From positions 1 through 29,915 of IMG/VR virus record IMGVR_UViG_3300006641_000114: 29,915 nucleotides of DNA; one strand, given 5' to 3'. Positions 1 to 28,346 of this stretch are shown one piece after another. Origin of the DNA: a virus. The notes under the pieces were generated by a model. That model made no database searches. It was not told the DNA's origin and was given only the letters and a program-made list of their open reading frames with translations. The first letter of the stretch is position 1. Every line of letters begins with the position of its first letter. Made by a program: the position numbers and the translations under genes.

Positions 1-215
1 AGTTTGCGTCTCATCTGGCAGGTTTTGCATAGGGGGGGGTCGTCGGCCAGCAACCTTAGCGGCCGTGCTGGATTTCCGGCGACGAGATCACCTGCGGCAA
101 CGTCGTGTGTGACGACGCTGCCGGCTCCGATGACCGCGTGTTGGCCGATGGTCAGGCCGGCGAGCATTCCCGCGTTGAATCCGATCGAGGCTCCGCGGCA
201 GATGCGCGAGCGCAC
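1..215 (-). CDS. Hexapeptide-repeat acyltransferase, C-terminal part (runs off the left edge)
   Basis: The minus-strand frame is open from a TGA at 219-221 down to position 1. It reads RICRGASIGFNAGMLAG, then HAVIGAGSVVTHDVAAG, then LVAGNPARPLRLL. Isoleucine or valine at every sixth position, the GAGSVV turn and the VAGNPAR ending are hallmarks of the left-handed beta-helix of bacterial O-acetyltransferases (LbH/Hexapep family), so this would be an acetyl-CoA-dependent sugar or amino-acid modifier. The only start I see is a GTG at 213-215, which would give a protein lacking most of its helix coils, and it overlaps the end of the methyltransferase-glycosyltransferase gene at 152-1357. It is therefore either a short acyltransferase or the remnant of a longer one that lost its N-terminus. 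A tail containing CKTC follows the family end and continues past the window. Family is likely; integrity is uncertain. Confidence 0.5.
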   Translation of the reverse strand, partial: MRSRICRGASIGFNAGMLAGLTIGQHAVIGAGSVVTHDVAAGDLVAGNPARPLRLLADDPPLCKTCQMRRK

Positions 216-1357
216 AAATCAGCGAGGAACGCCATGCGAACGTCAGGCTTCAGCGCGGTAAGGTGCGCGATGAAGTCGCCGCGTTGCCAGCAGTCTCGAA
301 GGTGGGGGTGCGAATTGGCGATGCGATGCGGCAGTGTCATGCCGATTAGCTCTCCGGCTTTCTCGATCTCGATCAGCGCGCCATTTTCCCACCACTTTTG
401 ATCGGTTTTACGTCGAGACTGCCAGGCTTCAAGAAACTCGATTGACTGCTCGCAGCGACGCACAAAAAAGACACCGCTGTTAAGTCCATTTATGTTGTCC
501 TTGAAAAACAACGCTGGAGTGACTCCGTCCCAGAAGTCTTCGAGCCGCTGGTCGTGCCGCATGAAAACCGCGTCGCTATCGATCCACATTACGAACTCGG
601 CTTCGTCCAGCGTCTCCGAAACGGCTTCGAGCTTCGCCCACGCCGCAGAACCTGGCGACTGCTCTGCGAGCTGGCGATGTTTGTATTTGTATCCATGCCG
701 TTCGCAGTAGACGGCGTGATTGTGCGCGGTCATCTCACGCCACGGCAAATTGTCCGTTGCGGCGCTGACCACTGCGATTTGAGACGGTGCGATGTCGCCG
801 ATCGGCTTGCGGAAATACCACGTCGGCCACTCTTCGAGCGTGTAGCCGACGACACGACCGACGCGCTTCGCGAAATCATCGACGGCCGACTTCACACCGA
901 ACAGCACGCCTCGATTTAAGTCGTCGCCGTACAGCCAGCAGTCGCGGTAGTCATGGCCGGCGAGCACTCCGCCGGGCAGCAATCGTTGCCAAAAAAATTC
1001 CATCTCGCGCGTCACGTGCGCGTATGTGTGATCGCTGTCGAGATAGACCGCGTCGAAATCGATTGGCGGGTCGAGCTTCAGCACGTCGCCGCGGTGAATC
1101 CGGAGACGCTCATCCTCACGCGCGAGCGCCTGCACTTCGCGAAACGCTTGGTCGAAGTCCATCGGCCAATCGTTCAAGAGAGTGTATTCCGGCCGCCGTT
1201 CCCAAAAGTCAAAGGCGTGCCACGCGCGGCCCTGCCACTGCGACAACACCTTCCGAGCGAACTCACCACGAAAGACACCGATCTCGGCCGCTTCGCCGAC
1301 CAAGCCCAGCTCGTTGAGCCACGCGCCGAACGTATCGCGAGTTCGCAGCTCAGCCAT
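152..1357 (-). CDS. Bifunctional SAM methyltransferase - DxD glycosyltransferase fusion (GT34-like)
   Basis: This 401-residue protein has two apparent enzyme domains. The N-terminal part (about residues 20-180) looks like a class I SAM-dependent methyltransferase of the Methyltransf_24 type: EIGVFRGE at 25-32 is the glycine-rich SAM loop, followed by DAVYLDSDH at 102-110, LLPGGVLAGHDY at 126-137. The C-terminal part (about 190-370) resembles the GMA12/MNN10 galactosyltransferase family: MWIDSDAVF with the metal-binding DxD at 260-262, then NSGVFFVR at 293-300 and GDFIAHL at 360-366. It would methylate and glycosylate a saccharide or protein acceptor in the cytoplasm. The start overlaps the end of the preceding gene by 8 bases, so the genes are probably translationally coupled. 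The last 30 residues overlap the acyltransferase frame and are low-complexity, so the C-terminus may be altered. The acceptor is unknown. Confidence 0.75.
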   Translation of the reverse strand: MAELRTRDTFGAWLNELGLVGEAAEIGVFRGEFARKVLSQWQGRAWHAFDFWERRPEYTLLNDWPMDFDQAFREVQALAREDERLRIHRGDVLKLDPPIDFDAVYLDSDHTYAHVTREMEFFWQRLLPGGVLAGHDYRDCWLYGDDLNRGVLFGVKSAVDDFAKRVGRVVGYTLEEWPTWYFRKPIGDIAPSQIAVVSAATDNLPWREMTAHNHAVYCERHGYKYKHRQLAEQSPGSAAWAKLEAVSETLDEAEFVMWIDSDAVFMRHDQRLEDFWDGVTPALFFKDNINGLNSGVFFVRRCEQSIEFLEAWQSRRKTDQKWWENGALIEIEKAGELIGMTLPHRIANSHPHLRDCWQRGDFIAHLTALKPDVRMAFLADLCARASAAEPRSDSTRECSPA

Positions 1358-3683
1358 CGAGTTCCGCCTTTCGACTCAAGACCACCTGATAGCCATCGTG
1401 CAGCATCTCGAAGCCGTTCGCGAGCGCCCACGGAATCGCCTGTCCGCCCTTGCCGGTCCACTGCCGCCCGTCGAACGGACTATCGTCAATGATGACGATG
1501 CCGGCCGAGTGCAGTTGCGGCAGGGCGGCTTGCAGTTCGATCAGGCAGTTCTCTTGATGGTTCGGCTCGGTCGTGTCGAGCGAGTCGAGATACAGAACGT
1601 GAATCGTTTCGTTGTTCGCGCGCAGCCAGTCGTCGCCGCGTGAAACATGCACGGCGACGGTCTCGCCGAAACAGCGAGTCCGGTCGTGAGCGAAGCGGCA
1701 GTTCCCATCATTGAGATCGACTGAGTGCAGCCGGCCGCCGAGGCGAGATAGGAATGCCCCGAACAGGTAGGTCGAGTAACCCGCGCCGCCCCAATCTTCG
1801 CTTGCTCGAATGCAGCCGGTTTCGACGAACGTCGGCGACTCGAACCGCCGCAGAGTTTCGCGAAACACAAGATCAAAACTCACGTCACGATCGACGAGCT
1901 TGGAGAGCCATCCGCCGTGATCGTTGCGAGTCCACGCGACGAACTGCTGAAGCTGCACGTCCGCCGCGATCGGGGCATCGACGAGATACTTCGCCGGCCC
2001 CAGCATTCTCGCCACCAACTCCGAGCAGCGGTACGAGTCCAGATCATCGTCGCCAGCTTCGACGATCTGCCAGCCGATGCGCTTTTGCAGGTTCCAATCA
2101 CGCCGCCGGCCGATCGTCACGCAGAGTAGTTCCGGATCTGGTATCGCGTAGGTCGTCGCGTAATGTCCTTCTCGAAAAAGACCGACACGCTTGGCACGAA
2201 CCAACTGCGCGGCGTGAAGAGGTCCAGAATCGACACCGACGACGATGTCGCACAGCGACGCCAAAATCAGAAGCTGCTGAATCGACACATGGCCGAAAAG
2301 ATCGCTGGCATGAATAACGTGGCGAGATGCCACGCGCGGAGAACGATTGTCCCAATCGAGGACGATGATCGTCCCGCCTGTTCGATGCACGACGTCACCG
2401 TAAAACTCAAAATGAAATTCCTGACTGACGTTTTTGCGACCCGGATCGGTGTTCCCCATGCCATGAAAACAAATCCACGGCTTCGGGAATGGAGCGAGCG
2501 CAGACCGCGTGTTCTCGACCGTCTGCACATCGAGCTTCTCGCGCAGATCGACGGGGTTCGCGACGAGCGCGGTCCACGCCGCCTCGCGTGAATCAAAGAT
2601 CGGAGGCAGCGGCGCGTGCTCCAGATTGCAGCCGACTTTGTTGCCGGCCCAATCTTGCGATCGGTCGTGCTCCAAGTTCCAGCGCGTGCCGATGAAAGCT
2701 TCCGGCCAAGAGTGATGAGCACCGCGATCGACCAGCTTCACGCCAGCCGCCTCAAACAGCCAACGCTTGTCTTCGGTGACTTGCACCGCCAGCTCGCAGC
2801 CGGCCGCTTCGTAGGTTTTTGCGATCCGCACGAAGTTCGCCGAGTCTCCGAGGCCGTGCGGAAATCTGACTGCCACGCGACGCGGTTCACCGAATAGATG
2901 CCGCTTTCCTTGCACGATCGCAATACTCTTTGCGATACGTTTTAGATTCGCGCCGAATTTCCAGGCGAGTTCTGCGTGCCGCGGTGACTCCAGGCAGATC
3001 TGTTCAATATCCGTGAACAGTCCAAGCCAAGCCGGCCCGGTCGAACTGCATACGAGCAGCGAGCACTCGGCGACACAATCCGCGAAAGCTTCGACAGTCG
3101 CGGGAAATGTTCGGTCGATTTGTCCCGTGCAGACGAGCTTGCCGAGCAATCGCTCGACATGTCCGTCAGTGTCTCGCGGACTGCGTGAAGCGCCGAACAA
3201 ACTGATCGCGTATCCGGCCGCCTTCAAATCCGCGGCGGTCTGCAACCAGTAGTTTTCGTCGAAGTAGCCGTTCCCTTGCGTGAACTCGACCGGTGCAATC
3301 ATCACGCGCTTCGCGTGCGGCGAGCAGTTCCACAGCAGAGGGAAGCCCACCGCTTCGCCGGGGGCGAGTTCGTTTCCCATTTCGACGGCGGCATTGTCGA
3401 AGATCGTCGGCTGCAAAAGACCTAACCGCTTCGACTCTTCATCAGGTGCGATCGTCAGCGCGGCCGCACGCTCAGGCCGCACGTTCACGCGGCCGGGAAA
3501 GACATAGTTCCAGATCGCCTTCACGTTGAGGCAGTCGTCGGGATCAGGCGGCACCACAAACGGCTCGAAGCCGTCGCGCTGCGCGAGATGCCACAGTGTG
3601 CCCGCCCAAATTGCATGATTGCCGACAGCCGCACACTGAAGAGATCTATGATCGAATCGATAAACTCGCGCTTCCTTGTTCAT
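1350..3683 (-). CDS. Tandem GT9-like glycosyltransferase fused to a methyltransferase-like domain
   Basis: This 777-residue fusion has three parts. Residues 1-255 resemble a divergent heptosyltransferase-type domain, with CSSTGPAWLGLF at 212-223. Residues 265-545 are a clearer glycosyltransferase family 9 domain: RFPHGLGD at 273-280 is the nucleotide-sugar loop, and VVGVDSGPLHAAQL at 481-494 is the signature seen in ADP-heptose transferases. Residues 600-777 resemble a class I methyltransferase: FVETGC at 619-624, HSVDLN at 653-658, VLYLDSLD at 696-703 and IVIIDDSPF at 729-737. Heptosyltransferase-family enzymes add sugars to lipopolysaccharide or other glycans. In a phage tail cluster the acceptor could be a virion protein. 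The ATG overlaps the stop of the upstream GT9 gene by four bases, consistent with one operon of glycan-modifying genes. Confidence 0.75.
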   Translation of the reverse strand: MNKEARVYRFDHRSLQCAAVGNHAIWAGTLWHLAQRDGFEPFVVPPDPDDCLNVKAIWNYVFPGRVNVRPERAAALTIAPDEESKRLGLLQPTIFDNAAVEMGNELAPGEAVGFPLLWNCSPHAKRVMIAPVEFTQGNGYFDENYWLQTAADLKAAGYAISLFGASRSPRDTDGHVERLLGKLVCTGQIDRTFPATVEAFADCVAECSLLVCSSTGPAWLGLFTDIEQICLESPRHAELAWKFGANLKRIAKSIAIVQGKRHLFGEPRRVAVRFPHGLGDSANFVRIAKTYEAAGCELAVQVTEDKRWLFEAAGVKLVDRGAHHSWPEAFIGTRWNLEHDRSQDWAGNKVGCNLEHAPLPPIFDSREAAWTALVANPVDLREKLDVQTVENTRSALAPFPKPWICFHGMGNTDPGRKNVSQEFHFEFYGDVVHRTGGTIIVLDWDNRSPRVASRHVIHASDLFGHVSIQQLLILASLCDIVVGVDSGPLHAAQLVRAKRVGLFREGHYATTYAIPDPELLCVTIGRRRDWNLQKRIGWQIVEAGDDDLDSYRCSELVARMLGPAKYLVDAPIAADVQLQQFVAWTRNDHGGWLSKLVDRDVSFDLVFRETLRRFESPTFVETGCIRASEDWGGAGYSTYLFGAFLSRLGGRLHSVDLNDGNCRFAHDRTRCFGETVAVHVSRGDDWLRANNETIHVLYLDSLDTTEPNHQENCLIELQAALPQLHSAGIVIIDDSPFDGRQWTGKGGQAIPWALANGFEMLHDGYQVVLSRKAELDG

Positions 3684-4627
3684 CGCATCCTTTCAATTGC
3701 TGCTACCACGTCGGCCGGCGTGATCCTTGTCATGCACTCGCCGACCGGTCTTTGCAGGCCGAACACCGGCCGCTCGCAGAGCGACTGATTTTTCGAGTCT
3801 CCGTCGCTGAGCGGCACGACGCGCGACTTCCAGCAGCCGCCGAGTCGGCAACACGGTAGCTGATAGGTTCCGACTGTGTGGAGAGTGGTTTGCAGAGGGT
3901 ACGTCGTCCACGTCACGGGCTCGCGTCCGCCGAGCAAACAGAGATAAGGCTTTTCCCACGCCGCGCAGAGATGTTGCAGCAGCGTCACGCCGCCCAAGCC
4001 GCCGCGAGCGTGCCAGGCCAGACGGATCAACTGCCGCAAGTCGGTCTTGCCGCGCAGGTCGATCACGCCGCTTAAGTCGGGGTGAAAATGCGACGGAGAG
4101 CACTCGCCGATCTGCACCCACAGAATCCGGCCGCGAGTCCGATCGACGACCTCTTGAAAAGATTCGACCGGCCACTGCTTTGCCGGGTAATCAGACTTCG
4201 TGCCGGCGTTGAGCAGCCAAAACGGAACGTCGCGGCCGTTCGTGTGATGCTGCCGCACCTGGTTGATCCACGTTTTTTCCTCGCTGCTCAAATACAGGTG
4301 CGGACGGTTCGTCGTCAGCGACAGCGGCCGGCCGATCTGCTCGGCGAGGTGCGACGTGTAGCCGGCGAGGAATGGCACCGCTCGATGATTCGAGTGATTG
4401 ACCGACGGATAGCGGCATTCGATCCGCGTCGCGTCGCGGTCATCGTCGGCGATTGGCGTCAGATGCGGGTTGTGCTCCCAGACTGCTCCGCACGTGGTCC
4501 TCGTGTCGGTGAGGAACTCGCCCGGATAAGTCTTGTGAAGCGACTCCACAGCCGCCGTCAGCGTCAGGATGTCGCCGGGACACAGCGACGAGCACAGCAG
4601 CAGCTTGATCGGTTTCGATTTTGCCAT
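3680..4627 (-). CDS. Glycosyltransferase family 9 protein (heptosyltransferase-like)
   Basis: This 315-residue protein has the layout of GT9 heptosyltransferases: two Rossmann-like halves. The first begins IKLLLCSSLCPGDILTLTAAVESL, broken here as a hydrophobic strand followed by the PGD substrate loop. The second holds GGLGGVTLLQHLCAAWEKPYLCLLGG, again a recognisable G-x-x-x-x-x-H-L-x-A-A-x-x-K-P pattern. GGREPVTWTTYP then matches the nucleotide-binding region of family members. A cysteine-rich stretch (CCRLGGCWKS) follows. I start at the ATG at 4625-4627, which is preceded by GGGGAAG, and not at a longer in-frame start inside the upstream gene. It is the first gene of the modification cluster and overlaps the next by four bases. 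Donor sugar and acceptor cannot be read from the sequence. Confidence 0.72.
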   Translation of the reverse strand: MAKSKPIKLLLCSSLCPGDILTLTAAVESLHKTYPGEFLTDTRTTCGAVWEHNPHLTPIADDDRDATRIECRYPSVNHSNHRAVPFLAGYTSHLAEQIGRPLSLTTNRPHLYLSSEEKTWINQVRQHHTNGRDVPFWLLNAGTKSDYPAKQWPVESFQEVVDRTRGRILWVQIGECSPSHFHPDLSGVIDLRGKTDLRQLIRLAWHARGGLGGVTLLQHLCAAWEKPYLCLLGGREPVTWTTYPLQTTLHTVGTYQLPCCRLGGCWKSRVVPLSDGDSKNQSLCERPVFGLQRPVGECMTRITPADVVAAIERMR

Positions 4628-4649
4628 CCGTGGCTTCCCCGCCGCGACG

Positions 4650-4919
4650 CTACGCACGCGCTCCGACGCTCAGCTCGCGATTCACGAACTCGAACACCTT
4701 CGGCAGATCGGCCAGCGGAAAACCCTTGGACGTTTGCGAGTGCCACACGCGACTGTCCGCGACGTGCGCGACAACGACGAGATATCGGCCTGACTTCAGC
4801 GCGTTCGCGAGATTCTCGTTCAGAACCGTTTCGGCCGTGACCTTCTCGACCGCTCCGATCGGAGGCTTCGACGGCTTCTTGCGACTGATGACTTTCTTTA
4901 CCATCTTCCGTCCGGACAT
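4650..4919 (-). CDS. Small basic protein of unknown function
   Basis: This 89-residue protein is not recognised. The N-terminus is strongly basic (MSGRKMVKKVISRKKPSKPP, positions 1-20), followed by an alpha/beta-looking domain with YLVVVAHVADSRVWHSQTSKGFPLADLPKVFEF split over residues 44-77. The ATG at 4917-4919 is chosen because GGGAG precedes it by about 8 bases. A TTG fifteen bases upstream is also open. The start lies inside the last codons of the preceding Cys-cluster gene, so the two are probably coupled. The gene sits between serine-rich tail proteins and glycosyltransferases, but nothing in the residues indicates a function. Confidence 0.6.
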   Translation of the reverse strand: MSGRKMVKKVISRKKPSKPPIGAVEKVTAETVLNENLANALKSGRYLVVVAHVADSRVWHSQTSKGFPLADLPKVFEFVNRELSVGARA

Positions 4920-5341
4920 TTTTCTGACTCCCAAGCCAGTTTGTTGAGGAACTCATTCTTCCCCGTGCAGTCGCAGCCGCACTTTGTGCAGTGCGTTTTA
5001 TCGAAGAACGGGCAGCCTTCACAGATCGAGACGAGCTTCGCGATCTCGGATTGCTTGCGACGTTTGAACCCGTTGGCCGCGTGCTTGGTGACCGCCTTGG
5101 CGAAGTTCCAGACGCGAGTCGTCAGCGGCGGAAGTTCCGGCTGCGGCGAGCTGGTTTCTTGATTCTGTGCCGCCGCTCGCGTCTGCGGTGAATCGATCAC
5201 GACCACTTCAGCCGACAACGGCAGCGGCTCGAAACCCCACGAGCGGCGGTACTGATTCACCTTCTCGCGCGGCAAGCCAGACTCACCACGGCAGATGTCG
5301 CGTTTGCGGCCGACGAGCTGATCGCATTCCGACAGGTTCAT
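4898..5341 (-). CDS. Small protein with C-terminal cysteine cluster (possible zinc-binding phage protein)
   Basis: This 147-residue protein starts with MNLSECDQLVGRKRDICRGESGLPREKVNQYR, which I break here as an N-terminal helix with two cysteines. A proline-rich linker (SSPQPELPP) follows. The C-terminus is the striking part: CEGCPFFDKTHCTKCGCDC, then W, then KCPDGRW. This CxxCP...CxxCGC...KCPxxxW arrangement occurs at the end of several small phage and metagenomic proteins of unknown function, where it presumably binds a metal. The ATG at 5339-5341 overlaps the stop of the poly-serine gene by four bases (ATGA), which favours this start over a longer open frame upstream. Close coupling to the poly-serine protein suggests a joint role in a tail appendage or its modification, but this is inference. 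Confidence 0.7.
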   Translation of the reverse strand: MNLSECDQLVGRKRDICRGESGLPREKVNQYRRSWGFEPLPLSAEVVVIDSPQTRAAAQNQETSSPQPELPPLTTRVWNFAKAVTKHAANGFKRRKQSEIAKLVSICEGCPFFDKTHCTKCGCDCTGKNEFLNKLAWESEKCPDGRW

Positions 5342-6051
5342 TCCGTGATCTCGAACTCGAACAGATCTTCGATCGGATCGGAGCAGCCACACAGCCCGAT
5401 CGTCGAAAATGCACCGGTGATCGACAGCGGCGAACAGTTCGCCGTGAAGGTATTCGACTGACCGTTGACCGAATACGTGCCTGCCGCGCCCTCGTCGAAG
5501 TCGCATTCAATCGCAAACGTCTGTCCGCAAATTGTCCCTTCGTACCTGGGCGGCGACGTTGCCACACGATTCAGCGTGATGCTCGCCGGATATCCCGCGC
5601 ACGGACTGGTGATCGTCATGTAAAGCGTGTCCGGAGTGCAGGGACACGGGCAGTTAACGCAGCCGCTCGACGAACTTGACAGGTTTTCGGAGCTTTGCGA
5701 CGAACTGCTGCTCGACGAACAATCGCAACAAACTTCGACATACGTCGGACCAGGAGCACCACTGCCAGATGGCGGGCCGGGAATTGAGCCTCCGTTGCAG
5801 TGATCTTCGAGTAGTTCCCAATCCGTTGCAAATTCGCCCCAGTAGTAAATGACATAACCGCAGCCGCAGGCGCTCGACGAACTGCTCGATTGCGAGGAAC
5901 TCGTTGACGACGACACCGAGGACGAACTCGACGACGACGAACTGCTGCTCGACGAGGAGGAAGAGCTTGACGACGACGAGCTGCTCGACGAACTGCTGCT
6001 CGATGAACAGCAGCAATCACCGCTCGAACTGCTTTCGAGTGAGCTGCTCAC
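5338..6051 (-). CDS. Poly-serine, cysteine-rich protein (putative tail appendage)
   Basis: This 237-residue protein contains an uninterrupted run of 30 serines at residues 16-45. Further serine blocks interrupted by V, T or Q follow to about residue 60, and a second tract lies around residues 110-130. Cysteines flank each tract (CCC before the long run, CGCG after it, CCDC and CVNCPCPC near the second). The C-terminal third, from TLYMTITSPCAG to the end, looks like a compact beta domain. The run uses all six serine codons. The GTG start at 6049-6051 lies two bases from the stop of the upstream serine-rich gene. I read it as a structural tail or fibre protein with flexible, probably modified serine stalks, because it sits between tail genes and glycosyltransferases. 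No family is recognised. Confidence 0.7.
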   Translation of the reverse strand: MSSSLESSSSGDCCCSSSSSSSSSSSSSSSSSSSSSSSSSSSSSSVSSSTSSSQSSSSSSACGCGYVIYYWGEFATDWELLEDHCNGGSIPGPPSGSGAPGPTYVEVCCDCSSSSSSSQSSENLSSSSSGCVNCPCPCTPDTLYMTITSPCAGYPASITLNRVATSPPRYEGTICGQTFAIECDFDEGAAGTYSVNGQSNTFTANCSPLSITGAFSTIGLCGCSDPIEDLFEFEITE

Positions 6052-6052
6052 G

Positions 6053-6772
6053 TCAGCACTTCCTCACGTTGACCATCGTTTTCGTGATCGTGCAGGCGCT
6101 CGCGTTGAAAGTCACATCTTTCACGACTTCGACGCATTCGCCATCGCTCGACGGCGTGCTCGACGGATCGCTCGACGGCTGACTCGAATCGCTCGACGTG
6201 CTCGACTCGCTCGACGCCGAGCTGTCACTCGATTGCGACGAACTGACCGACGGCGACGAATCAGAACTCGGACTTGACGCACTCGACTCGCTAGATGGCG
6301 ACGACGACGGCGAAGACGAAGGACTCGACGAAGAACTGCTCACCGAGGACGACGACGAGGACGACACCGACGACGATTGACTCGACGAGGACGACGAACA
6401 ACAGCCACCACTCCGTCGCAACGCACGCCAGACGCCGCCGAGCCATCCGCAGATCACGCGGCAACCGCTTCGCGGAGCGTGCAGCGGATCACTCAGCTCG
6501 GAGTTCAGATCGCAGTCGCCATAGACCTCGACCTCTTGCGAAGTCGCCGAGATCGTGCCGCTCGACCGCTTCATCAAATAGCCCGTCGCCGAAATCAAAT
6601 CGCTCGACGGCAAATCCTCCGTGAGCAGGACTTCGATCAGACCTTGCCGGCTGAGACCGCGATTCACGCCACGGCGCGGCGGCTGATTTTGATTGCGCCG
6701 CCGATTCGCCCGCACAGCGTCAGTGATGTCGCCGACCGCTTCTTTCGTGAGTGTGAATCCGACGACCGCCAT
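6053..6772 (-). CDS. Serine-rich protein with globular N-terminal domain
   Basis: This 239-residue protein starts with a non-repetitive domain (residues 1-120) that includes ITDAVRANRRRNQ, a GLIEVLLTEDLPSSDLIS segment and a Cys pair (GCRVICGWLGG). A serine-dominated region (about residues 123-205) follows, containing S with P, V, D, E and Q in irregular order. The last 35 residues (GECVEVVKDVTFNASACTITKTMVNVRKC) look like a small beta domain. The ATG is preceded by GGAG at about 7 bases. The architecture of globular anchor, serine stalk and small tip resembles a fibre or an adhesin stalk. It directly follows the putative distal tail protein and precedes the poly-serine gene. No known family is recognised, so the structural role is inferred from position. 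Confidence 0.65.
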   Translation of the reverse strand: MAVVGFTLTKEAVGDITDAVRANRRRNQNQPPRRGVNRGLSRQGLIEVLLTEDLPSSDLISATGYLMKRSSGTISATSQEVEVYGDCDLNSELSDPLHAPRSGCRVICGWLGGVWRALRRSGGCCSSSSSSQSSSVSSSSSSSVSSSSSSPSSSPSSSPSSESSASSPSSDSSPSVSSSQSSDSSASSESSTSSDSSQPSSDPSSTPSSDGECVEVVKDVTFNASACTITKTMVNVRKC

Positions 6773-6815: not shown

Positions 6816-6848
6816 AGACTTCCGAAGTCTCAAAGACTTCGGAAGTCT
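6816..6848. repeat. Repeat A, copy 1 (33-bp double palindrome)
   Basis: Arms AGACTTCCGAAGTCT and AGACTTCGGAAGTCT around a 3-base spacer CAA. It lies between the putative distal tail gene and the serine-rich gene. A half copy lies just upstream, at about 6802-6810. Confidence 0.95.
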
Positions 6849-6865
6849 TTTCGCACGATGTGACC

Positions 6866-7720
6866 TTAAACGAGCAGCGCGACCAGCGACGACCAACTTG
6901 TCGGGAGATATCGCTCGAAGGTCAAGATGACTGCCGACGCTGCCGAAGGATTCGCCAGCACGCCGCCGCTGCCATCGAGCGGCACCGGCTGTTGTGGTTC
7001 GCTGCCGTCGGCGTTGACGATTGCCACACGATCGGAGCCGCTTTTCTGCCGCCAGCCGGCATCCAGCACGTTCGCGTCCCAGCCGTTGTCATCGACTTCG
7101 ATCGTGCCGCTGACCGTGTAGTAGGTCGTTCCGTTTCGCTCGTGCGGTCCCGTGATTTCCGGCTCGCGAAACTTGGCCTTCGACGCGCCGACGCTGATCG
7201 CTCCGCCCCAGATCGTGAAACCGGCAAGGTTCAACGAATTCTGCAACGAGAACACCCACGCCGGAGGCGTCGCCGTGTTCTTCGTGAACGTGATCAGTCC
7301 ACGAGCGCGATCCTTCTCAATCGGCGGATCAATGAACGGATCGCCGGCCGAGTTCAACACCGGATCGCCATTCGCATCGACGACCATCACCTCGGAGAAA
7401 AGTTGCCCGCTGACCTTCAACTCGGCCGGTTCGTTGAGCGGGTTTTCGTCGTCGTTCGAGTATTCGATCTCGCAGAGCCAAATGAGCATCTCGTGCTCTT
7501 GCGTCGGCCGATAACTTTTTGGGTAGGCCGTTGCGTCACCTGGAAAGGAATCGCTCGGCGTGAAGCCCGACGTTGCCGACACTGCCGCGACCACTGTCGC
7601 CCCGTTGTCGTCAGGATCGTTGCAATAGACGCGACAGACGCGCCGCCACCGCGTCGAGCCGTCGTTTCGCGCCTCGCCGTCTCGCGACTTCGCAATCTCT
7701 TTGATCTGAATGACAGCCAT
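6866..7720 (-). CDS. Putative distal tail or baseplate protein
   Basis: This 284-residue protein is not assigned to a named family. It is mostly predicted beta strands with a repeated pattern of hydrophobic alternation. Recognisable stretches are RRVCRVYCNDPDDN near the N-terminus, MLIWLCEIEYSND, RGLITFTKNTATPP, GLITFTK-like turns and TYYTVSGTIEVDDNGWDANVLDAGW, which suggest a phage structural protein with a ligand- or partner-binding surface. The ATG at 7718-7720 has GGGAG about 7 bases upstream. An alternative longer frame would add residues encoded by repeat B at 7733-7792 and is rejected. It follows the tape measure gene directly, the position where siphophages encode distal tail and baseplate proteins. 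Confidence 0.6.
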   Translation of the reverse strand: MAVIQIKEIAKSRDGEARNDGSTRWRRVCRVYCNDPDDNGATVVAAVSATSGFTPSDSFPGDATAYPKSYRPTQEHEMLIWLCEIEYSNDDENPLNEPAELKVSGQLFSEVMVVDANGDPVLNSAGDPFIDPPIEKDRARGLITFTKNTATPPAWVFSLQNSLNLAGFTIWGGAISVGASKAKFREPEITGPHERNGTTYYTVSGTIEVDDNGWDANVLDAGWRQKSGSDRVAIVNADGSEPQQPVPLDGSGGVLANPSAASAVILTFERYLPTSWSSLVALLV

Positions 7721-7732
7721 CCTTGGCTCCCA

Positions 7733-7792
7733 GTTCGTAGTTCCGCCTTGAGGCGGCTGCATCCCTCACCGCCTAAAGGCGGAACTACGAAC
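7733..7792. repeat. Repeat B, copy 1 (60 bp)
   Basis: Inverted repeat with outer arms GTTCGTAGTTCCGCCTT and its complement. It lies between the tape measure stop and the distal tail start. Length is a multiple of three. Confidence 0.95.
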
Positions 7793-9198
7793 TACCGCAC
7801 GCCCACCGCTGCAACTTCAGCGTTCTCGATGTTGCGATTCAGCCGAGCCGCTTCATCTGCCGCACGCTTGGCCTCGTCGTACTGCTTTTTGGAGATCTGA
7901 TACTGTCGATCCGCCTGCTGATTGCCGGCCGCTGCAAACAACGTCTTGAAGAACTCACCCGATCCAGCCGTGATCGCACCCGCGCCACGCTGACCGATTC
8001 GTCGCTCGCGATCTCGAAAGCGGCTCTGATCCTCCCACTCTTTTTTCTGCTGAGCCGCAACAGCCGCGTCGTTTCCGCTGACGTAGTTCGGGTCGTTCGG
8101 ATCAGCAGAACTGCCGTCGAAAAAGAACGTGCCGCCGTTTCCCTTCTTGAGCTTCGGACCTTTCTCGAACTCCCGCTTTGTTGCAGCCAGAGCCTTTGAA
8201 AGTTCCGCAAGCTGATCCGCCGACTCTTTCAGGTTCTCGTTCCAAGTCGTCACCGACACTTGATTGAACTGGCCGCCCGCAAACGCTGTGCGCGACTGCT
8301 GAGCCTGAAACTCTTTTTGCGTCTTGTCCCAACCCTTCATTTCCAGTGCCGTGTCGCCGCTTTCGACATCGCCGAGAACGCTCGTGCGGAAGCCGTGGAC
8401 CTGATCAATCAGCGTCTGTAGCCAGCCTTTGACGTTCAGCTTCTCAAGAAACAGCGTTGCGATGCCGCCGAGCGTCAGGCCGATCTCATCTTTGAACGTG
8501 CTCCACAGTCCGGTGAGCGTCGTCGATTGTGTCGCTGCCATATCGTGGAAGCGTCCGCCAGCAGACGTGGCATCGACGAACGCTTGCCGCACTTCATCGA
8601 ACGAAATTTTCCCGTCCTCCATGCGTTTCTTTAGCTCGGCCATTGTCTCGCCCGTGCGACGGCTGATCTCTTGCAGCGGGTTGAAGCCGGCGTTGATCAA
8701 CTGCAACAAGTCCTGACCCATCAGCCGGCCGGTCGAAGCGATCTGACCGTAAGCCAGGCTGATGCGACCGAGCTTCTCTTCGCTCCCCATCGCGACATCA
8801 CCGAGCATCATCAGATCGGGAATCACGCTTTTCGCGTTCACGCCGAAGTTGAGCAGCATCTGCGCCGCGTCGCGGACTCCGCCTTGTGAGTACGGCGTTT
8901 TCGAGGCGTACTGCGTGAGACCGCCGAGCATCGACTTCGCCGCATCCGCGCTGCCGAGCAACGTCGTGAACGACGCTTGAGCCATCTCGCTTTGAGCGGC
9001 CACTTCCACGCCCCACTTCGCCGCCGCCATCACCGACAGGCCGGCCGTCGCCGCCGCCGCGAATCCGAGCAGCTTGCCGCCGACCGCCGAAGCGACCGAA
9101 CCCAACCCACCAACCTCTTGACGGACCTGCTGCGCCCCGCTCGAAAACTGAGCGTGATTCATTCGCAGCCCGATCACGATGTCGCCAAGAGTCGCCAT
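7792..9198 (-). CDS. Tail tape measure protein
   Basis: This 468-residue protein matches the N-terminal tape measure domain of siphophages. It starts MATLGDIVIGLRMNHAQFSSG, given here as a strand-turn-helix, and continues with a hydrophobic AAAATAGLSVMAAAKWGVE segment. The conserved block ALTLLGS-like (FTTLLGSADAAKSML), YASKTPYS, AAQMLLNFGV, LISLAYGQI-like and GQDLLQLINAGFNPLQEIS, then GETMAELKKRMEDGKIS, follows, as in the TIGR02675-type tape measures. The protein spans the tail lumen and sets tail length. Its size would predict a short tail of roughly 70 nm if the usual 0.15 nm per residue holds. The C-terminal 130 residues are charged and helical. SD-like AGGAA precedes the ATG. Repeat A lies just upstream and repeat B abuts the stop. 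Confidence 0.9.
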   Translation of the reverse strand: MATLGDIVIGLRMNHAQFSSGAQQVRQEVGGLGSVASAVGGKLLGFAAAATAGLSVMAAAKWGVEVAAQSEMAQASFTTLLGSADAAKSMLGGLTQYASKTPYSQGGVRDAAQMLLNFGVNAKSVIPDLMMLGDVAMGSEEKLGRISLAYGQIASTGRLMGQDLLQLINAGFNPLQEISRRTGETMAELKKRMEDGKISFDEVRQAFVDATSAGGRFHDMAATQSTTLTGLWSTFKDEIGLTLGGIATLFLEKLNVKGWLQTLIDQVHGFRTSVLGDVESGDTALEMKGWDKTQKEFQAQQSRTAFAGGQFNQVSVTTWNENLKESADQLAELSKALAATKREFEKGPKLKKGNGGTFFFDGSSADPNDPNYVSGNDAAVAAQQKKEWEDQSRFRDRERRIGQRGAGAITAGSGEFFKTLFAAAGNQQADRQYQISKKQYDEAKRAADEAARLNRNIENAEVAAVGVR

Positions 9199-9212
9199 AG
9201 GTTTCCTGAAAC

Positions 9213-9244
9213 GACTTCCGAAGTCTCAAAGACTTCGGAAGTCT
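9213..9244. repeat. Repeat A, copy 2
   Basis: Same arms with one base missing at the left. It stands between the gpT-like gene and the tape measure start, 15 bases from the ATG, and outside the SD. Confidence 0.95.
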
Positions 9245-9975: not shown

Positions 9976-10008
9976 AGACTTCCGAAGTCTCAAACACTTC
10001 GGAAGTCT
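9976..10008. repeat. Repeat A, copy 3
   Basis: Same arms with one mismatch in the right arm (ACACTTC). It stands upstream of the gpG-like gene and lies inside an open frame that is not translated as that gene. Confidence 0.93.
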
Positions 10009-10979: not shown

Positions 10980-11051
10980 GTTCGTAGTTCCGCCTTCAGG
11001 CGGTCCTGTCGTCGTTTCCTCAATGCACCGCCTGAAGGCGGGACTACAAAC
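10980..11051. repeat. Repeat B, copy 2 (72 bp)
   Basis: Same outer arms with a longer loop than copy 1. The tail terminator TAG (11044-11046) lies within the right arm, and the tail tube SD begins one base beyond the left end. Confidence 0.95.
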
Positions 11052-11553: not shown

Positions 11554-11586
11554 AGACTTCCGAAGTCTTCAAGACTTCGGAAGTCT
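11554..11586. repeat. Repeat A, copy 4
   Basis: Same arms around spacer TCA. It is preceded at 11524-11545 by degenerate half-arms. It lies between the gp10-like and tail terminator genes. Confidence 0.95.
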
Positions 11587-12585: not shown

Positions 12586-12657
12586 GTTCGTAGTTCCGCC
12601 TTCAGGCGGTCCTGTTGTCGTGCGCTCAATGCACCGCCTGAAGGCGGAACTACGAAC
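12586..12657. repeat. Repeat B, copy 3 (72 bp)
   Basis: Same arms and a loop closely similar to that of copy 2. It lies between the gp6-like connector and the adaptor gene and supplies the connector stop (12650-12652). Confidence 0.95.
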
Positions 12658-17091: not shown

Positions 17092-17124
17092 AGACTTCCG
17101 AAGTCTCAAAGACTTCGGAAGTCT
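17092..17124. repeat. Repeat A, copy 5
   Basis: Perfect copy with spacer CAA between two small beta-protein genes. A partial arm occurs just before it. Confidence 0.95.
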
Positions 17125-17689: not shown

Positions 17690-18016
17690 TTACTGACCGC
17701 GCTTGCGTTTGCGGGGAGCGGCCGGCTCGCTGTCTCCGGAGTTCTCATCGTTCGTCCCTTCGGCATTCGTTTCGTCCGCCGGCTCGTCATCGGTTGAGAC
17801 TTCCGAAGTCTTCAAGACTTCGGAAGTCTGCTCCGTCTGCTCCGTGGAAGTCTGCTCCGTTTCGACCACCTTCGCGGCCGGCTTCGAGCCAACTCGTTTC
17901 CCGCCGCCGTGAGCTTCCAGCCACGCGGCGTTCTCTTCCGTGACTTCGATCGTCTGCCCTTTTTCGCCCTTGCAGCCGGCTTTGTGGCACGTGTGGTTGA
18001 GCGTGAATTGCACCAT
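17690..18016 (-). CDS. Small protein with in-frame repeat A insertion
   Basis: This 108-residue protein has an N-terminal segment MVQFTLNHTCHKAGCKGEKGQ with a CHKAGC cluster and EVTEENAAWLEAHGG, which resembles small virion proteins whose N-terminal domain carries the phrase 'V....A..L...G.a'. The C-terminal half is low-complexity, acidic and ends KRKRG. Within it, residues about 63-74 (TSEVLKTSEV) are encoded by a full copy of repeat A at 17797-17829, which keeps the frame open because it is 33 bases long. GAGG precedes the ATG by about 8 bases. Function unknown. Confidence 0.6.
   Translation of the reverse strand: MVQFTLNHTCHKAGCKGEKGQTIEVTEENAAWLEAHGGGKRVGSKPAAKVVETEQTSTEQTEQTSEVLKTSEVSTDDEPADETNAEGTNDENSGDSEPAAPRKRKRGQ
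17797..17829. repeat. Repeat A, copy 6 (inside a coding frame)
   Basis: Perfect arms with spacer TCA, in frame in the 108-residue protein gene. It encodes TSEVLKTSEV without a stop. Confidence 0.95.
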
Positions 18017-20242: not shown

Positions 20243-20275
20243 AGACTTCCGAAGTCTCAAAGACTTCGGAAGTCT
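20243..20275. repeat. Repeat A, copy 7 (overlaps the prohead protease stop)
   Basis: Perfect copy with spacer CAA. The prohead protease ends inside it with DFRSL and TGA. Confidence 0.95.
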
Positions 20276-23168: not shown

Positions 23169-23201
23169 AGACTTCCGAAGTCTCTGAGACTTCGGAAGTC
23201 T
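23169..23201. repeat. Repeat A, copy 8
   Basis: Perfect arms with spacer CTG, one base beyond the large terminase stop. Confidence 0.95.
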
Positions 23202-26104: not shown

Positions 26105-26137
26105 AGACTTCCGAAGTCTCAAAGACTTCGGAAGTCT
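26105..26137. repeat. Repeat A, copy 9
   Basis: Perfect copy with spacer CAA between the HNH nuclease and small terminase genes. Confidence 0.95.
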
Positions 26138-26846: not shown

Positions 26847-26879
26847 AGACTTCCGAAGTCTCTGAGACTTCGGAAGTCT
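26847..26879. repeat. Repeat A, copy 10
   Basis: Perfect arms with spacer CTG between the Gam-like and small membrane protein genes. Half-copies (CCAGACTTCG) precede it. Confidence 0.95.
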
Positions 26880-28313: not shown

Positions 28314-28346
28314 AGACTTCCGAAGTCTCAGAGACTTCGGAAGTCT
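28314..28346. repeat. Repeat A, copy 11
   Basis: Perfect arms with spacer CAG, between the small membrane protein and the exported nuclease. Confidence 0.95.

Follow-up and report, generated by a model that had tools for sequence, protein, structure and literature searches.

Polyserine tails and linkers are widespread among uncultured phages, and the 30-serine run of the phage analysed here is one case. On balance, we favour the view that the serines of this run accept sugars on a structural protein of the tail tip, where a phage-encoded GT9 enzyme would glycosylate them.

The serine-rich tail module

The window, the whole 29,915-bp IMG/VR record analysed here, encodes an HK97-type capsid and a portal together with a tape measure protein, and its serine-rich genes follow the tape measure gene in the direction of transcription, placing them in the tail module (Table 1). 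The poly-Ser protein begins (GTG)SSSLESSSSGDCCC-S30-V. After its CCC-S30 segment come three shorter tracts (S6, S7 and S5) bordered by Cys-rich sequence; the C-terminal part is predicted to be beta-rich. The GTG start codon lies one base past the upstream ORF's TGA and has a good ribosome site (GAGGAA) eight bases 5′ of it. That upstream ORF encodes the companion protein, in which 73 of the 239 residues are serine and the serine-rich segment is bordered by cysteine.

Table 1 Features of the window and of serine-tailed virion proteins in other phage contigs
Feature	Contig	Position	Strand	Basis
Methyltransf_24 + GT34-like glycosyltransferase fusion	window	152..1357	−	PF13578 1e-11; PF05637 4.1e-19
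GT9 + Methyltransf_24 fusion, 777 aa	window	1350..3683	−	PF01075 1.5e-8; PF13578 7.9e-8; phrog_24975 1.7e-81
GT9 heptosyltransferase-like enzyme	window	3680..4657	−	PF01075 1.3e-8
Small Cys-rich protein (ICxxCPF...CTKCGC...CPDGRW), between serine-rich gene and glycosyltransferases	window	4898..5341	−	E=4e-34 to L165:9050-9556
Poly-Ser protein, 237 aa	window	5338..6051	−	translation and codon counts
30-serine tract, all six codons	window	5917..6006	−	codon counts
Companion serine-rich protein, 239 aa	window	6053..6772	−	N-terminal domain, GCC-Ser-rich linker, Cys-bordered 29-aa C-terminal domain
Tail-module protein upstream of serine-rich genes	window	6866..7762	−	homologue in L165 (6655-7686), same position, z 28
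Tape measure protein	window	7792..9198	−	PF20155 E=1.4e-26; phrog_9959 6.3e-55
Serine C-tail on major capsid protein	L114			PF05065 2.5e-18; phrog_10 4.7e-47
Serine C-tail on head closure protein	L114			phrog_501 4e-5
Serine C-tail on major tail protein	L114			phrog_117 2.5e-20
Serine C-tail on head decoration protein	L116			phrog_122 1.7e-9
Serine tail on tail tube protein	L130			phrog_158 2.5e-4; weaker in L139

The poly-Ser protein had no matches in Pfam, PHROG or NCBIfam, and its single-sequence AF2 model was poor and uninformative (pLDDT 42). As low-complexity filtering blocks BLAST of this protein, it was compared by synteny and with its sequence masked or split into domains. At the protein level, homologues were found only in near-identical contigs in IMG/VR, and none among INPHARED phages; the S30 is unchanged in one such contig, IMGVR_UViG_3300006917_000353 (99.97% identity over 13,087 bases).

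A 43-kb contig, L165, carries homologues of the window genes from the tail module to GT9 in the same order. L165:7658-8680 corresponds to the companion gene (C-terminal domain z 6.9 against shuffles), and the next gene, L165:8697-9116, occupies the position of the poly-Ser gene and encodes CPCC-S7 without significant sequence similarity. The number of serines, proposed in the original prediction as a point to compare among homologues, is thus not conserved at this position. The small Cys-rich protein and its L165 counterpart (L165:9050-9556) are possible metal-binding partners. The latter is followed by a GT9 gene (55% identity to the window GT9), an HldE-C-like adenylyltransferase, a sugar-nucleotide SDR enzyme and a second GT9-like gene. 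In the window, the GT9 gene starts about 0.7 kb downstream of the serine-tract gene, and the glycosyltransferase cassette may extend past the contig end, beyond the GT34-like fusion gene. The glycosyltransferase genes adjoining the serine-rich genes were not mentioned in the original prediction.

Two kinds of dispersed repeat were also observed. The paired palindrome AGACTTCCGAAGTCT-NNN-AGACTTCGGAAGTCT occurs in eleven copies, in one order and orientation throughout (22 hits, 0.01 expected), at 6816-6848, 9212-9244, 9976-10008, 11554-11586, 17092-17124, 17797-17829, 20243-20275, 23169-23201, 26105-26137, 26847-26879 and 28314-28346. Of 336 loci, the only ones with the pair were contigs from this phage. 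Several copies lie near gene boundaries, and the pair may be a dispersed REP-like element or a regulatory or recombination site. A 72-bp repeat is found at 10980-11051 and 12586-12657 (about 92% identity), and translated strings similar to it (VVPPSGG, PEGGTTN) recur in other window ORFs.

Serine tracts in the window and in other phages

Codon counting gave exactly the composition first reported for the 30 consecutive serines, TCG 14, AGC 7, AGT 3, TCC 3, TCA 2 and TCT 1, with the cysteines likewise as described, CCC before the run and ACGCG after it. Such a run is far beyond chance: of 80 random IMG/VR contigs, one had an ORF with a serine tract. That all six serine codons are used is correct but unremarkable, as 70% of 30-serine draws under the phage's usage hold all six, and the codon mix of the tract is that of serine across the phage's genes (Monte Carlo P=0.95).

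The accompanying argument, that mixed codons speak against DNA slippage, does not hold as stated: mixed codons lack the power to exclude DNA-level expansion because multi-codon mixed units are themselves duplicated. One instance is a pure 111-serine tract (L110:8571-8903; IMGVR_UViG_3300042197_002762) that belongs to a protein of 1098 aa encoded on a 178-kb phage contig. It repeats the 15-bp unit AGC AGT TCG TCG TCG in tandem, with a lag-5 codon identity of 0.90 vs 0.36 when shuffled. Nine of the 65 phage tracts with at least 15 serines are periodic at P<0.01, and within the window gene the S30 tract and its own S7 tract, about 90 residues apart, have a 7-codon (21-nt) block in common (P=0.004, for independent codons). 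These arrays and shared blocks are what would be expected if the tracts were DNA-level repeat expansions of little function, a reading that is nevertheless already disfavoured and in our estimate highly improbable, given that 64 of the 65 tracts mix TCN and AGY codons, that several virion proteins per phage carry tracts in one reading frame, that the tracts associate strongly with one family of glycosyltransferases (see below) and that pure serine survives codon turnover. The last point comes from comparing two phages, L115/L133 and L116/L118 (91.7% DNA identity). Between them, an S25 tail is of the same length with one synonymous change, and in the adjacent tail, S48 in one phage and S41 in the other, codon order is scrambled and the residues are 100% serine. 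The claim that serine is kept at the protein level is therefore borne out in other phages (S25/S25; S48/S41), and these sequence comparisons support selection for serine in the tracts. The tracts appear to lengthen when mixed-codon blocks are duplicated, after which selection would keep serine while codon choice drifts towards that of the genome.

When IMG/VR was scanned by codon pattern, at least 15 uncultured phage contigs proved to have proteins of the capsid, head decoration, tail tube or tail tip that bear serine tails or linkers. The scan revealed phages with a serine tail or tract on each of two to six proteins. The candidate acceptors in these other phages are virion proteins by family identity (major capsid, head decoration and major tail proteins; Table 1), and we infer that the poly-Ser protein of the window is likely present in the virion too. 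INPHARED yielded no homologue of the L120 decoration protein or the L129 N-terminal protein. A search of the open-licence literature found no paper describing such tails in phages, and prior work elsewhere is possible.

The tracts follow two architectures. C-terminal tails account for 22 of the 65 tracts of at least 15 serines; in the second architecture, an internal Cys-bordered serine-rich segment is found in the tail-tip proteins of the window, L110, L129, L134 and L165. Internal tracts such as those of the window, L129 and L165 do lie between domains, as they would if they were mere flexible spacers and the glycosyltransferases served otherwise, for example by altering the sugars on the host surface so that other phages are kept out. 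In polysaccharide-degrading bacteria, long pure serine segments are inter-domain linkers of secreted enzymes; the phage tails share their purity and length but are virion tails, not inter-domain linkers. Non-virion phage enzymes also contain polyserine linkers, as in a secreted glycosidase-like protein of L132 (identity judged by eye). A spacer role nevertheless fails for the C-terminal tails, because there is nothing after the tract to link, and would leave the association with GT9 in both directions, and the adjacency of the genes, unexplained. We consider this explanation unlikely, though neither it nor the stalk discussed next is mutually exclusive with glycosylation.

The cysteines bordering internal tracts in the window, L110, L129, L134 and L165 also bear on the original proposal of an extended stalk with inter-chain disulphides formed by the flanking cysteine clusters. 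The two ideas are compatible, because dense O-glycans would stiffen the segment too. As an explanation of the tracts, however, the disulphide stalk is very unlikely: the cytoplasm is reducing, and none of the 22 C-terminal tails has a cysteine within the 5 residues preceding the tract.

Association of serine tracts with GT9 genes

The preferred reading, glycosylation of the serines, draws on the distribution of GT9 genes. GT9 was present in 7 of 16 contigs picked only for serine tracts and in 0 of 82 background contigs (Fisher P=8e-7), the latter comprising 34 tape-measure relatives (0/34) and 48 random contigs (0/48); the contigs are fragments and partly related, so that these counts are not fully independent and represent associations, not rates. 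The association persisted when two close relatives were collapsed (P=4e-7) and, among contigs of at least 30 kb, was complete, with GT9 in 6/6 serine-tract contigs vs 0/47 in the background (P=4e-8). The tape-measure relatives, collected as 80 viral loci and 10 genome loci, became a background set, and among the viral ones no serine tracts were found except in this phage itself. In the reverse direction, 38 of 59 contigs picked only by a GT9 profile, for which the window and four serine-tract phages, all themselves among the 59, supplied the sequences, had a serine-tract ORF within 10 kb, vs 0/81 and 1/80 in the background (1/161 in total). In these 38 loci the serine-tract ORF was always on the same strand as GT9, at a median distance of 1.2 kb. 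When the GT9 proteins were clustered at 50% identity, 9 of the 17 clusters had a serine tract nearby. In L110, the GT9 gene is about 2.5 kb from the serine-rich module.

The association has exceptions in both directions. Under the thresholds used, 21 of the 59 GT9-positive loci have no serine tract. Several serine-tract contigs shorter than 20 kb lack GT9, possibly due only to fragmentation, and a 27.6-kb contig (G004) lacks it also. L129 and L134 carry GT2 in place of GT9, and PF00535 (GT2) showed no clear enrichment (2/16 serine-tract contigs vs 2/34 tape-measure relatives). Counting matches above the reporting limit, Methyltransf_24 followed the same trend as GT9 (6/16 vs 1/34; P=0.003).

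Genes for sugar-nucleotide synthesis accompany some of these loci. HldE-C-like adenylyltransferase genes were found in 10 of 50 GT9-positive contigs. The L165 example (L165:10882-11331) matches TIGR02199 at 2.5e-49 with a score of 166.8, below the curated cut-off of 181.5, and therefore the sugar may not be heptose. HldE-adenylyltransferase-like genes were seen in the GT9-positive contigs G057, G061, G062, G076 and G088, and some HldE-like phage ORFs, at 466-578 aa, could encode full bifunctional HldE-like proteins. In G008 (L139+L140), three Methyltransf_24 genes, an NAD-epimerase (sugar-nucleotide) gene and two GT9 genes directly precede the gene for a 1154-aa serine-rich fibre-like protein.

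A putative TibC-like enzyme and a proposed glycan coat

The AF2 model of the window GT9 (pLDDT 95.4) has a GT9-type GT-B fold, with VIA-align Z-scores of 23.9 to 3tov, 21.1 to WaaF and 20.3 to TibC. Because all three score Z 20–24, the fold alone cannot separate protein from LPS transferases, and it fits LPS heptosyltransferases equally, as the spacer explanation would allow. Searching the PDB with a profile of five phage GT9s returned WaaF (2e-6) and TibC (1.5e-4). A comparison of the two alignments showed that the one to WaaF ends before the cysteines, while the one to TibC spans GCW...C...C. Across 36 aligned phage GT9s, invariant residues include G27, D28, K159, C268, C274, W275, C293 and C307. 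Three of the four cysteines align with TibC C342, C358 and C370, the first lying beside an alignment gap near C339, and the resulting C-terminal motif resembles the TibC iron finger, as judged from these alignments. TibC loses activity when the iron-finger cysteines 339, 342, 358 and 370 are mutated (PMC4358343). TibC Lys230 corresponds to phage K159, and the catalytic-type Asp is D28 (via WaaF). The sugar-site residues Thr226 and Arg286 of TibC, whose conserved set also includes Asp110, have no clear phage match, and where TibC has Trp305 the phage GT9s have His (His228), on our reading of the alignments the residue of LPS heptosyltransferases too. The four-cysteine finger is not universal in serine-tract contigs, being absent from the GT9 of L110.

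TibC heptosylates serine, not threonine, from an ADP-heptose donor, and besides its fold has an N-terminal beta-barrel, a beta-hairpin thumb and a dodecameric assembly (PMC4358343). The phage enzyme resembles this bacterial autotransporter heptosyltransferase group (TibC/Aah, BAHT) in its GT9 fold, C-terminal finger, invariant Lys and catalytic-type Asp, and presumably in using serine as acceptor. It differs in being phage-encoded and, in addition to the His for Trp305, in its size of about 310 aa vs 406 for TibC, which would leave no room for the N-terminal barrel; the alignment starts at TibC residue 80. It would presumably act on structural proteins, at their low-complexity serine tracts, and not on beta-helix autotransporters as TibC/Aah do. 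With moderate confidence, and without claiming family membership, we suggest from sequence and model that the window GT9 works like a TibC-type protein heptosyltransferase. No homologue of it, or of two other phage GT9s, was found in INPHARED. The BFVD entry A0A6J5SVC1, a 924-aa uncultured Caudovirales phage protein annotated 'Glycosyltransferase Aah/TibC', matches the window GT9 model; the kinship of phage GT9s with Aah/TibC is thus already noted by automatic annotation.

In the proposed mechanism, the serine tract would present acceptor sites on a structural protein, probably of the tail tip, and we infer that the GT9 encoded just downstream transfers sugars onto the serines, probably assisted by the neighbouring GT9/methyltransferase and GT34/methyltransferase fusions. 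The leading candidate would be heptose or a related ADP-activated sugar. This would give the particle an extended segment densely covered with O-linked sugars, which may aid adsorption, protection or surface masking. For the broader idea, that many unrelated uncultured phages share this self-decoration, the genetically encoded polyserine tails of their capsid, decoration and tail proteins being hyper-O-glycosylated by phage-borne TibC-like enzymes, in some cases with their own HldE-like sugar-nucleotide synthesis, to give a sugar-coated virion, we judge the case to be evenly balanced.

Related systems are known. Freeman et al. (2023; cited in PMC11256854) reportedly described virion glycosylation in mycobacteriophages, in which phage-encoded glycosyltransferases are thought to modify virion proteins; we know of no long pure serine tails serving as acceptors there. 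That system differs from ours in its enzymes and hosts. The serine-rich repeat glycoproteins of Gram-positive bacteria are glycosylated by enzyme families other than GT9. They combine long serine-rich acceptor regions with dedicated glycosylation (PMC6973325). Unlike the phage proteins, they are bacterial adhesins with accessory secretion.

An odd low-complexity tract leads to a general hypothesis that can be tested: many environmental phages may coat their own particles with glycans, using simple serine tails as acceptors. If true, protein O-heptosylation would extend from bacterial adhesins to the viruses of bacteria, the presence of GT9, methyltransferase and sugar-nucleotide genes in phage tail modules would be explained, and polyserine together with a four-Cys GT9 would be a sequence marker for glycosylated virions.
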